Shown: one piece after another, positions 25,775 to 64,000 of the stretch | How the letters are laid out: each line of letters starts with the position of its first letter | Numbering within the stretch: the stretch's first letter is position 1 | Source: Desulfocapsa sp. | GTDB lineage: Bacteria > Desulfobacterota > Desulfobulbia > Desulfobulbales > Desulfocapsaceae | Direction: 5' to 3' | Length of the DNA stretch: 64,000 nucleotides | NCBI GenBank assembly: GCA_022712895.1 | Contig: JAFLJS010000051.1 | Location: 101,927 to 165,926 of the forward strand | Translations under genes and position numbers: made by a program | Notes under the pieces: generated by a model | Seen by the model: the letters and a program-made list of their open reading frames with translations, nothing else | Told to the model about the DNA's origin: nothing | Databases searched by the model: none

Positions 25775-25858
25775 GATAAGAAATCCCTAAGCAAAAGAGC
25801 AGAAAAAATAATCAAATAACCAAGAACTGTAAAAGTTTACCAGATAAGCGTAGACTTC

Positions 25859-25940
25859 GTGCCCCATATCTGGGCAGGCGTATCATCCCTGCTATACAGT
25901 ACCGTATGCAGGGCGATGCGACCGTTCAGAGATGGGGTGC
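25859..25940. repeat. 82-bp imperfect palindrome between mrp and the MBL gene
   Basis: Left arm 'GTGCCCCATATCTG' ... 'ATCCCTGC' pairs with the right arm 'GCAGGGCGAT' ... 'CAGAGATGGGGTGC' over about 33 positions, with a loop around CAGTACCGTA. No T-run follows on either strand. The sequence differs from the copy A-E family and from the 47-kb palindromes. Confidence 0.75.
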
Positions 25941-61656: not shown

Positions 61657-61783
61657 GATAACGGCCGGTATCACTGGAAACAAGCGGGATTACTTGCCAA
61701 GGTTATTCACAGCTGTGAGCTCGGGTAACCGATGAAGGTTATATGAAAAACTGCGCTGCTTGTTTTCCAGTGAATACCTTTGT
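61657..61783 (-). repeat. attC-like site 4, interrupted by group II intron 1
   Basis: About 127 bp on the left of the intron. Minus strand: 'ACAAAGGTATTCACTGGAAA' with ACAAGC at the R'' end, 'CCCGCTTGTTTCCAGTG' and 'CCGGCCGTTATC' at the R' end. Joining the two sides of the intron restores GAAACAAAGGTATTCACTGG-type sequence, comparable to site 3. Confidence 0.68.
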
Positions 61784-61921
61784 GTACGCCCGGCATGGGC
61801 GTGAACTCATGGGGGTAAAGTCCCCTGTAAATGTTCCATGTAACGTTGTGAAACGTACCATAAATTACTAGCCGATGGCAAGGGCGTTACCGTGAGGTAG
61901 AGTCTGAAGGAAGCCTAAGTG

Positions 61922-61948
61922 CAGGTAAGCGAGGTACGAGACTCCGAA
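61922..61948 (+). repeat. 27-bp intron repeat, copy a
   Basis: CAGGTAAGCGAGGTACGAGA then CTCCGAA. In intron copy 2 the equivalent place reads only 'AAGTGCAAAGATG', so the repeat is an insertion of about 23 bp here. Confidence 0.85.
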
Positions 61949-62071
61949 GATATGAGGCGGAGTTTATCCCGGGTAGTTTCGGGGAACAGAAATATCATAT
62001 AAGGCCGAGTCTCTGGGTAAGTCAGCACAACATGATTAGGCCCAGGAACAGGAGATACGGTAAATGATACG

Positions 62072-62098
62072 TTCGGAGTCTCGTCCCTCGCTTACCTG
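62072..62098 (-). repeat. 27-bp intron repeat, copy b (inverted)
   Basis: Reverse complement of the unit, one base different from copy a. It is present at the same place in intron copy 2 (63780-63805). Confidence 0.85.
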
Positions 62099-62244
62099 CA
62101 TATCGGAAGTTCACGTCATTTTCCGGGGAGATCTGTATTCCATGCGGTATAAAATTATTTCCAGTGAAATCACCGGTGGGGTTCCGGTACACAAATATCC
62201 CGGTACAGACAGGGAATGTCCTGGCCTTTCCGTAAGATACGAAA

Positions 62245-62271
62245 CAGGTAAGCGAGGGACGGGACTCCGAA
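62245..62271 (+). repeat. 27-bp intron repeat, copy c
   Basis: Direct orientation, two bases different from copy a. Intron copy 2 lacks it at the equivalent place ('GATACGAAGAAAAGAAGACA'). Confidence 0.85.
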
Positions 62272-62358
62272 GAAGGCAGACAGGAAATAAGGATGTACAG
62301 CGCCACGCTGAGTAATTGGAATGGTGAGAATACAGAAGTCAGCAGAGGCCATAGTAGC

Positions 62359-62385
62359 CAGGTAAGCGAGGAACGAGACTCCGAA
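62359..62385 (+). repeat. 27-bp intron repeat, copy d
   Basis: Direct orientation, one base different from copy a. The equivalent place of intron copy 2 lies beyond the window. Confidence 0.85.
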
Positions 62386-62680
62386 TGCCAAGGGTAATGC
62401 CTTGGACACGGTGAAGGGCTGAACATTAAGGAGAGTAAAGGTAGTTGATGGCTCTTGATATGCGTTGAATCCGAATGGAGGGGCAGTGTTCAGGCGTTAA
62501 TCGACAGAACCAGCTCAAAGTCTTTACGTCCGGTTACAACCCGACAACCTTAATGAAACGCCCCGTGCGCGCCCTAAAAGAAGTGCCCCTGGGGTAGAGC
62601 CGCATGCGGGGTGTTGTGGGGGCTTGGGGGAGGAAATCCCCCGGCTACCCGATTCGGCGTCTTTTTGCCGTTTTCTTTTG

Positions 62681-62959
62681 TTACGCAAATTCGATCCGTA
62701 ACCGTTTACCTATAACATGGGCTGCACGTTCTAATGTTTGAAGAGTAATAGATGTGTTTTGTGGGTCAAGAAGTCTATCCAACGCAGAGCGACTTGTGTT
62801 CATTTGCTGTGCCATAGCTACTTTTGACAGTTTTTTAGATTTCATTAGTTGGGAAACTTGATAAGCTATTACTCGTTTAATAGCGATTGCTTCTGTTTCA
62901 GCTAATATATCTTCCTCTTCCAGAAAATCATCAAAACTGCTTCCGATATGTTTATTCAT
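62681..62959 (-). CDS. higA: HigA-type XRE antitoxin of the higBA cassette
   Basis: The track starts at a TTG (62971); ATG 62959 has GGAGGT five bases upstream and gives 92 residues. HTH: 'AYQVSQLMKSKKLSKVAMAQQMNTSRSALDRLLDP', then 'ITLQTLERAAHVIGKRLRIEF', typical of antitoxins paired with Gp49/HigB toxins. It overlaps the toxin stop by eight bases. Confidence 0.9.
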   Translation of the reverse strand: MNKHIGSSFDDFLEEEDILAETEAIAIKRVIAYQVSQLMKSKKLSKVAMAQQMNTSRSALDRLLDPQNTSITLQTLERAAHVIGKRLRIEFA

Positions 62960-63305
62960 GTTTACCTCCAAAAGTTGCCATACGTTGTTTTGCGACGTTT
63001 AAGTCATTTGCAGGAGTTTTTTGAGATTTTTTTATAAACCCATGCAACAAGACCATGAGTCCTTCATGTGAAGTGAATAGAATACGGGCGATACGGTTAT
63101 CCAACTGAATACGAACTTCCCATAAACCTGCCTCCATTTTACGGACAAGTGGCATTCCCATGGGCCAGCCAAATTGAACAGTTTTTATATCTTCTCCAAT
63201 AACTTTACGATCTTCTTTGTCGAGCTTTTTAAGCCAATCGCGTACCGGTTCTTTTCCAGAGTCTGATTTGTAAAAAACAACCTGTAATCTAAAATTAGTG
63301 CCCAT
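62952..63305 (-). CDS. higB: HigB/Gp49-type RelE-superfamily toxin
   Basis: Start set at ATG 63305 ('MGTNFRLQVVFYKSDSGKEP'; ATG 63311 is possible; the track's TTG 63332 lies in the promoter/operator). 117 residues. 'PVRDWLKKLDKEDRKVIGEDI', 'GWPMGMPLVRKMEAGLWEVRIQL', 'ARILFTSHEGLMVLLHGFIKKSQKTP' in essence: the phage Gp49-like branch with the terminal GF-KK motif. A ribosome-dependent mRNA interferase. Toxin precedes antitoxin, as in higBA. Confidence 0.9.
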   Translation of the reverse strand: MGTNFRLQVVFYKSDSGKEPVRDWLKKLDKEDRKVIGEDIKTVQFGWPMGMPLVRKMEAGLWEVRIQLDNRIARILFTSHEGLMVLLHGFIKKSQKTPANDLNVAKQRMATFGGKHE

Positions 63306-63315
63306 AAGCATAGTG

Positions 63316-63329
63316 TACCAAATATGGTG
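63316..63329 (-). promoter_or_regulatory. Palindrome at the higBA promoter, candidate operator
   Basis: ACCATATTTGGT is an imperfect inverted repeat just upstream of the higB start, overlapping a weak TTGCTG-N16-TACACT promoter. HigA could repress here. Confidence 0.4.
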
Positions 63330-63383
63330 CAAACAGCAACTGCTTTATTGGCTTCTAGAATATTATATGATTTTGGATTTTAT

Positions 63384-63513
63384 AGCCGAACGGCCGAGCT
63401 AACCTGCCCCGAGCAGATTTAGCAACCAACTTGAAGCGAAGTTAAAACTTAAAAACAACCACTGAACGCCGCCTGAAAACAGGCGTGCTCGGGGTCAGCG
63501 TTGAGTGATTTGT
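63384..63513 (-). repeat. attC-like site 5, interrupted by group II intron 2
   Basis: About 130 bp right of higBA. Minus strand: 'ACAAATCACTCAACG' and CTGACCCCGAGCA at one end, TGCTCGGGGCAGG and 'GGCCGTTCGGC' at the other; CCCCGAGCA/TGCTCGGGG pair perfectly. The arms differ in sequence from sites 1, 3 and 4 while the end motifs agree, as expected for attC sites from different sources. Confidence 0.68.
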
Positions 63514-64000
63514 GTACGCCCGACATGGGCGTGAACTAATGGGGTTAAAGTCCCCTGTAAGTGTTCCCTGTAACGTTGTGAAACGTAACATGAATTACTA
63601 GCTGATGGCAAGGGCGTTACCGTGAGGTAGGGTTTGGAGGGAGCCTAAGTGCAAAGATGTGGGGCGGAGTTTATCCCGGGTAGTTTCGGGGAACAGAAAT
63701 ATCATATAAGGCCGAGTCTCCCGGTAAGTCAGCACAACATGATCAAGCCCAGGAACAGGAGATACGGTAAATGATGCGCTCGGAGTCTCGTACCTCGCTT
63801 ACCTGCATATCGGAAGTTCATGCCCTTATTCGGGAAGATCTGCATTCCAAGCAGTATGAAATTATTTCCAGTGAAATCACCGGTGGGGTTCCGGTTCCCA
63901 AATATCCCGGCACAGATAAGGAATGTCCTGCCTGTCTGTGAGATACGAAGAAAAGAAGACAGACAGGAAGTAATGACGTACGGCGCCAATACGGGCAATC
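63514..64000 (+). mobile_element. Group II intron, copy 2, cut by the window end
   Basis: Same 5' region as copy 1, roughly 90% identical over the compared part. Begins 'GTACGCCCGACATGGGCGTG' after TTTGT. Contains 27-bp repeat copy e but lacks copies a and c. The 3' part, and any ORF, lie beyond the window. Confidence 0.8.
63780..63805 (-). repeat. 27-bp intron repeat, copy e (inverted)
   Basis: Same place and orientation as copy b of intron 1, matching over 26 of 27 bases. Confidence 0.85.

Follow-up and report, generated by a model that had tools for sequence, protein, structure and literature searches.

What is a short repeat doing at different places inside two sister group II introns? 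The question is raised by the end of contig C48 in a 3.68-Mb draft genome of Desulfocapsa sp. (GCA_022712895.1; G000 below), where the 64,000-nt stretch that we analysed, here called the window, holds five near-identical copies of GGTAAGCGAGGNACGAGACTCCG, four in a first intron and one in a second. We conclude that the repeat very probably belongs to a family of non-autonomous mobile small dispersed repeats (SDRs), analogous to those of cyanobacteria, and that group II introns are one of its hosts.

The copies differ from one another at one to three positions and are present in both orientations. Their 13-base start occurs exactly at 61922 (+), 62086-62098 (-), 62245 (+), 62359 (+) and 63793-63805 (-); with up to two mismatches it gave seven matches where shuffles predict 0.8, and none of 100 shuffles reached seven. 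This set of copies, described in the initial annotation, is thus confirmed beyond chance. Empty sites in sister introns fix the limits of the insert at exactly 23 bp, placed at CA^A with neither target duplication nor loss, the CA before it and the A after it being target and not unit. The initial annotation had proposed a 27-bp unit moving as a discrete block of about 23-27 bp: the discrete inserted block stands, its length is 23 bp. The introns, copies and sites are as follows.

61782 to 62653, + strand: intron 1, a group II intron that lacks an intact gene for an intron-encoded protein and has four 23-bp units
63512 to 64000, + strand: intron 2, sister of intron 1, with one unit (b), sites a and c empty, and a match to Rfam RF02001
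61924 to 61946, + strand: copy a, 23-bp unit GGTAAGCGAGGTACGAGACTCCG at GTGCA^AAG; empty in intron 2 and relatives
62074 to 62096, - strand: copy b, inverted 23-bp unit; empty in unit-free relatives
62247 to 62269, + strand: copy c, 23-bp unit at GAAACA^AAGAAGG; empty in intron 2, G000:C16 and unit-free relatives
62361 to 62383, + strand: copy d, 23-bp unit at TAGCCA^AATGCC; empty in G127 (flanks 97.5% identical), G002, G009 and G098
63781 to 63803, - strand: copy b of intron 2, 23-bp unit, placed by sequence match and intron alignment
63653^63654, no strand: empty site a of intron 2, GTGCA^AAG, exactly 23 bp shorter than intron 1
63952^63953, no strand: empty site c of intron 2, exactly 23 bp shorter than intron 1
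61880^61881, no strand: site x, empty in intron 1; in G000:C21 and L080 it holds a 17-nt sister unit

The boundaries of intron 1 were set from its ends (5' GTGTACGCCC, 3' CCCGAT) and from an alignment with 16 relatives; it matches the Rfam models group-II-D1D4-3 and D1D4-1. Intron 2 stops at the contig end, base 64000, before site d. The claim that copies a and c are missing from the sister intron between matching flanks was borne out by the lengths given above. At 63653^63654 the direct repeats D2 and D1 adjoin; the unit alone splits them in intron 1.

Aligned introns of this genome and of other genera have five insertion sites (a, b, c, d and x), each with filled and empty alleles. Site a is filled in intron 1, L117 (Desulforhopalus) and L133 (Desulfogranum); intron 2 and most others have no unit there. 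Site b carries the 23-mer in four G000 introns, a 25-nt sister unit in L117 and L133, and nothing elsewhere. Site c is filled in intron 1 and L080 but not in intron 2 and others; site d is filled in intron 1, C16 and L080 and empty in G127, G002, G009, G098 and G004. The 17-mer at site x is confined to C21 and L080. Wherever the flanks align cleanly, filled and empty alleles differ by exactly the unit. The register at site b is ambiguous by one base because the empty allele reads GC^GAG, and the same ambiguity affects copies flanked by CC in miniature inverted-repeat transposable elements (MITEs).

Searching the whole draft genome for a 26-mer, a check suggested by the initial annotation, gave 11 copies (up to three mismatches; reversed control 0), all inside group II introns, or pieces of such introns, that are related to one another, number about six and have no intact protein gene. 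The related intron of G009 encodes a complete reverse transcriptase with a maturase domain (PF00078, PF08388) and has no unit at any of four sites; sites a-d are likewise unfilled over the readable part of the introns of G009, G098, G004, G127 and G002. The initial annotation had named two outcomes that would speak against a moving unit, a repeat fixed in the intron class and introns that are not homologous at the empty sites. Unit-free members rule out the former, and the alignment establishes homology at these sites. Unit-free introns score 114-132 bits against RF02001, compared with 59-63 for the window introns and 80-87 for two other G000 introns in which site b is filled. Since the unit-free introns fit the model far better, the empty state looks ancestral and the unit looks like a derived addition to the intron class.

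The initial annotation tied the unit to group II introns, a link that for the most part does not hold in other genomes. Elsewhere in the Desulfobulbales the 23-bp unit lies mostly outside introns, mainly within palindromic MITE-like repeats (for example L119, with ends GTAACT.TTCAGCAG); at the relatives' loci tested its flanks were unrelated and gave no group II intron match. A few copies do sit in introns of other genera (L075, L080, L117, L133). Units of 17, 18, 23, 24, 25 and 27 nt share 8-nt ends, GGTAAGCG and AGACTCCG, around differing cores of 1 to about 18 nt that often form hairpins. One such sister unit occurs in the window outside the introns.

25843 to 25859, + strand: 17-nt sister unit GATAAGCGTAGACTTCG, intergenic, in a MITE-like repeat between metallo-hydrolase-like and Mrp-like genes

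Its second base and the partner of that base show compensating changes; we looked for an independent empty site of this unit and found none.

Units were present in 23 of 96, 68 of 193 and 78 of 193 genomes in successive scans, with reversed controls near zero and a maximum of 133 copies of one length class per genome. Matches to a 25-base pattern, among those listed with an informative name, came from Desulfobulbales or from metagenome-assembled genomes (MAGs) named just Deltaproteobacteria or Pseudomonadota. When 395 genomes of the phylum were searched, one other family showed a burst, and matches outside the order were otherwise single. The genome with the burst, G260, has 49 copies, mostly 24-mers among those listed, which may reflect either lateral transfer or a range wider than the order. 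Particular versions dominate particular genomes: the 17-mer with A in G006, the 24-mer AGCCTGCG in G012, the 25-mer AACGGAGTG in G049 and the 25-mer ACCGAAGGG in G183. One dominant version per genome is what recent bursts, each from a single source copy, would produce. Only 17 of 201 units lie in open reading frames of at least 130 aa, though such frames cover 77% of those loci. Finally, a 40-nt relative, GGTAAGCACCCTTAAAAACAGGGCATAAACTYCGACTCCG, occupies the same kinds of site in L083, L150, L161 and others (Desulfobulbaceae MAGs); its ends, GGTAAGC and GACTCCG, are shorter, and it contains a CCCT...AGGG stem.

Do these units insert, or are they only carried along? A homologous empty site was recovered for 181 of 242 distinct copies, and the length difference at the junction was zero in 143 of the 181. 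Every common length has empty sites, some of them in filled and empty pairs with 100% identical flanks, and the net difference was zero for 26/33 17-mers, 6/7 18-mers, 90/115 23-mers, 6/6 24-mers and 14/16 25-mers. Weighted over about 47 dissimilar flank contexts, the target reads C (-2, 67%), A (-1, 81%), insertion point, A (58%), with little information farther out. The units have no terminal inverted repeats, and insertion adds exactly the unit length. They also insert into each other: four 41-mers of G169 consist of the 24-mer GGTAAGCGAGCTTGCGAGACTCCG interrupted by a reversed 17-mer at GCA^AGC, which on the other strand is the usual target. Tandem arrays have a period of exactly 25 in G169 or 23 in G100, which confirms the unit lengths. 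Such runs are short and limited to some genomes, while most copies are single and dispersed, ruling out a CRISPR or a simple tandem repeat. Past mobility is well supported by these comparisons.

The cores of the 25-mers appear to form a small hairpin. Among 63 distinct 25-mers, positions 10 and 16 read CG in 29, GC in 14 and AT in 9, and positions 11 and 15 read CG in 39 and TA in 10. Each pair of positions can pair in 54 of the 63, compared with shuffled means of 26 and 44, and no shuffle did as well; these shuffles permute letters and ignore relatedness, so that p-values serve only as guides. Slid pair controls were not significant. Pairing support was weaker in the 24-mers, whereas the cores of the 33-34 nt units of G092 form longer stems. 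An outer stem was considered and dropped: it shows one kind of compensatory change (GATAAGC...GACTTCG) and overall falls short of significance. The 17- and 18-mers have GNA and GNNA loops. Loops of this kind are typical of DNA minihairpins.

The nearest described kind is the cyanobacterial SDR. The SDRs of Nostoc and relatives are reportedly about 20-27 nt long, dispersed and precisely inserted at a short target, and are said to be embedded in small transposons and nested, with a small hairpin that shows compensatory changes and with no known enzyme. The present units resemble them in size and behaviour: they are commonly 17-27 nt long where an SDR has about 20-30 nt, occur in many dispersed copies, insert precisely at most junctions, and nest both in one another and in MITE-like hosts. 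Compensatory changes support a hairpin in the inner stem of the 25-mers, weakly in the 24-mers and not in the outer pairs of the 23-mers. The differences are that the host group is Desulfobulbales and not cyanobacteria, that the kinship is judged by behaviour and not by sequence, that one pair of ends encloses many cores, that units go down to 17 nt, and that group II introns serve as hosts. The target differs as well, CA^A here as against, for example, the HIP1 octamer given for SDR5 in PMC4390886; the SDR study of Elhai et al. 2008 (Genome Res 18:1484, doi 10.1101/gr.074336.107) is cited in PMC3733652, PMC4390886 and PMC2884548.

Other small mobile DNAs are more distant. MITEs of prokaryotes are about 100 bp or longer and have terminal inverted repeats and usually target duplications (PMC10969869); our units are equally non-autonomous and dispersed, and have MITEs as their main host, but lack both of these marks. 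The GC clusters of yeast mitochondria (PMC4478555), taken from a general description only, are also small mobile GC-rich units within a mobile DNA family, but they belong to organelle DNA and have another sequence. The initial annotation knew of no described mobile unit of this kind in group II introns. The size class has in fact been described in Nostoc; a literature search that covered few subscription journals found no report placing units like these in Desulfobulbales or inside group II introns.

How might the units move? They insert seamlessly, mostly after CA and before A, and can insert into one another; we propose that they survive mainly at harmless positions such as intergenic repeats and group II introns, and that inserted units later act as small homologies for recombination that removes pieces of the intron. 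An enzyme of the host or of a transposon would copy the unit in trans, taking it as a small single-stranded hairpin. Seamless insertion, a short target on the left and a small hairpin are together reminiscent of single-strand transposition as in IS200/IS605 and REP (repetitive extragenic palindromic) elements. Copying of such a hairpin, as DNA more likely than as RNA, is our leading but tentative guess, and half of the weight that we give it falls on a Y1-type enzyme.

Several alternatives must be set against a mobile SDR family. Were the unit an ancestral structural piece of introns and other repeats, with empty alleles arising by deletion, precise loss could yield the alleles observed, and different genera have units at the same intron sites. 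This view is already largely refuted, and we give it next to no chance: introns with reverse transcriptase lack the unit, unit-free introns fit the model far better, flanks are unrelated among introns, several MITE types and unique sites, and units are nested in other units. It is almost as improbable that the units have no mobility of their own and were spread just by gene conversion and by transposition of carrier MITEs and introns. It is true that a host repeat is common to many copies, with 96 of 244 in a single context cluster. Yet the flank contexts include tens that are unrelated, the empty sites are exact, units nest, insertions also occur at unrelated single sites, and one and the same site can hold units of different lengths, all of which speaks for independent insertion.

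The remaining alternatives concern the mover. REP or REPIN-type repeats mobilized by a RAYT (REP-associated tyrosine transposase, Y1 HUH) are likewise short, extragenic, non-autonomous and numerous (PMC3116915, PMC3733652), and resemble the units in seamless insertion at a short left-flank target; Y1 transposases (PF01797) were found in 171 of 193 relatives. Yet the GTAG or CGTC tag that defines REP elements (PMC3733652) is missing from the unit ends, strong palindromes and doublets are absent, paired inverted organisation is not the rule, and copy number does not track Y1 matches. Indeed, G166 has 122 copies of a 25-mer and one weak Y1 match, and G150 (a draft, 84% complete) has 17 units and no Y1, whereas 24- and 25-mers are absent from G024, G069 and G045, each with 11-21 Y1 matches. 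We consider this origin unlikely, and the lack of tracking tells against a Y1 transposase as the mover. The main rival on mechanism, somewhat less unlikely, is RNA-mediated copying, in which a short hairpin RNA inserts into DNA or into RNA, for example that of an intron, and a reverse transcriptase such as that of group II introns then fixes it. The core covariation and the concentration of units in group II introns in the source genome would suit it, and RNA intermediates have reportedly been suggested for cyanobacterial SDRs; outside this genome, however, most copies lie in MITE-like DNA repeats that skip RNA, and the GNA and GNNA loops weakly favour DNA.

Other observations weigh against a mobile SDR family itself. 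An enzyme, a tag and a longer autonomous parent were looked for and none was found. A parent would carry the same ends around a gene: 424 pairs of ends lay at most 3 kb apart, just 15 had a joined empty site, and each of those inspected could be put down to a 40-nt sister unit, a tandem array or a neighbouring unit. To this add the missing correlation with Y1 genes. Moreover, independent insertions are far fewer than copies because many copies multiplied with a shared host repeat, and filled and empty alleles across genomes are the whole record of movement, transposition itself not having been observed. The outer stem proposed for the hairpin of the 23-mers shows no significant covariation, and folding energies are weak and no better than those of shuffles. 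As standard energy models give short units almost no stability, the hairpin is argued from covariation in one class and not from energy. We nevertheless favour a mobile SDR family, on grounds read from the DNA itself: an exact unit, exact empty sites, a target preference, nesting and deletion breakpoints at units.

These breakpoints bear on the fate of the introns. Within G000, the C21 (L035) and C48:25k (L034) introns have the left flank of c joined to the right flank of d, and in the C5 intron (L037) x is joined to d. The two kinds of deletion, with breakpoints exactly at units, suggest that recombination between units, or insertion with deletion, removed intron segments. The idea that inverted copies could pair with direct ones in the RNA found support in the predicted minimum-energy fold of intron 1 (about 870 nt, hence rough), where copy b pairs over some 22 bp with copy d. 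On an equally rough estimate, 145 of the 247 pairs predicted after removal of the units in silico are kept in the filled intron. Small inserts that disturb the fold and later serve as deletion points would be one route of group II intron decay. A bolder and rather doubtful extension is that no DNA insertions smaller than these units, which go down to 17 nt, are known to move, that an undescribed enzyme carries them by reading just two 8-nt ends around any small hairpin, and that group II introns are a preferred host now being dismantled by recombination between units.

The cyanobacterial SDRs raised the question, still open, of the means by which DNA units of about 20 bases move. It becomes testable now that another, unrelated bacterial group shows such behaviour, in part in the genomes of strains in culture (Desulfopila, Desulfosediminicola, Desulfogranum), as sister species rich and poor in copies can be compared for the missing enzyme.

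Some minor points remain. Some matches that lie within genes (L049, L108, L060, L061) contain several mismatches and probably represent normal coding sequence; the few of them left in the empty-site and flank-context counts do not change the result. Viral contigs contained no copies of the 23-mer or of the one 25-mer class tested. A strand bias along the chromosome, hinted at by the first sites in G054 and G169, disappeared in the full lists, which are mixed. Another short string, AACAGCGAAGCGGTGTC, recurs in similar repeats (L121, L138, L162) and is possibly a second small family.

Between 58600 and 63510 the window carries a series of small genes that resemble those of toxin-antitoxin systems (by eye VapC-, HicAB-, HTH- and RelE-like), spaced by imperfect palindromic repeats of about 110 bp. 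In appearance the region is a chromosomal integron whose repeats would be attC-like sites, the attC core motifs fitting only loosely. Both introns are located at the end of one such repeat; if the integron is real, introns 1 and 2 would be attC introns.
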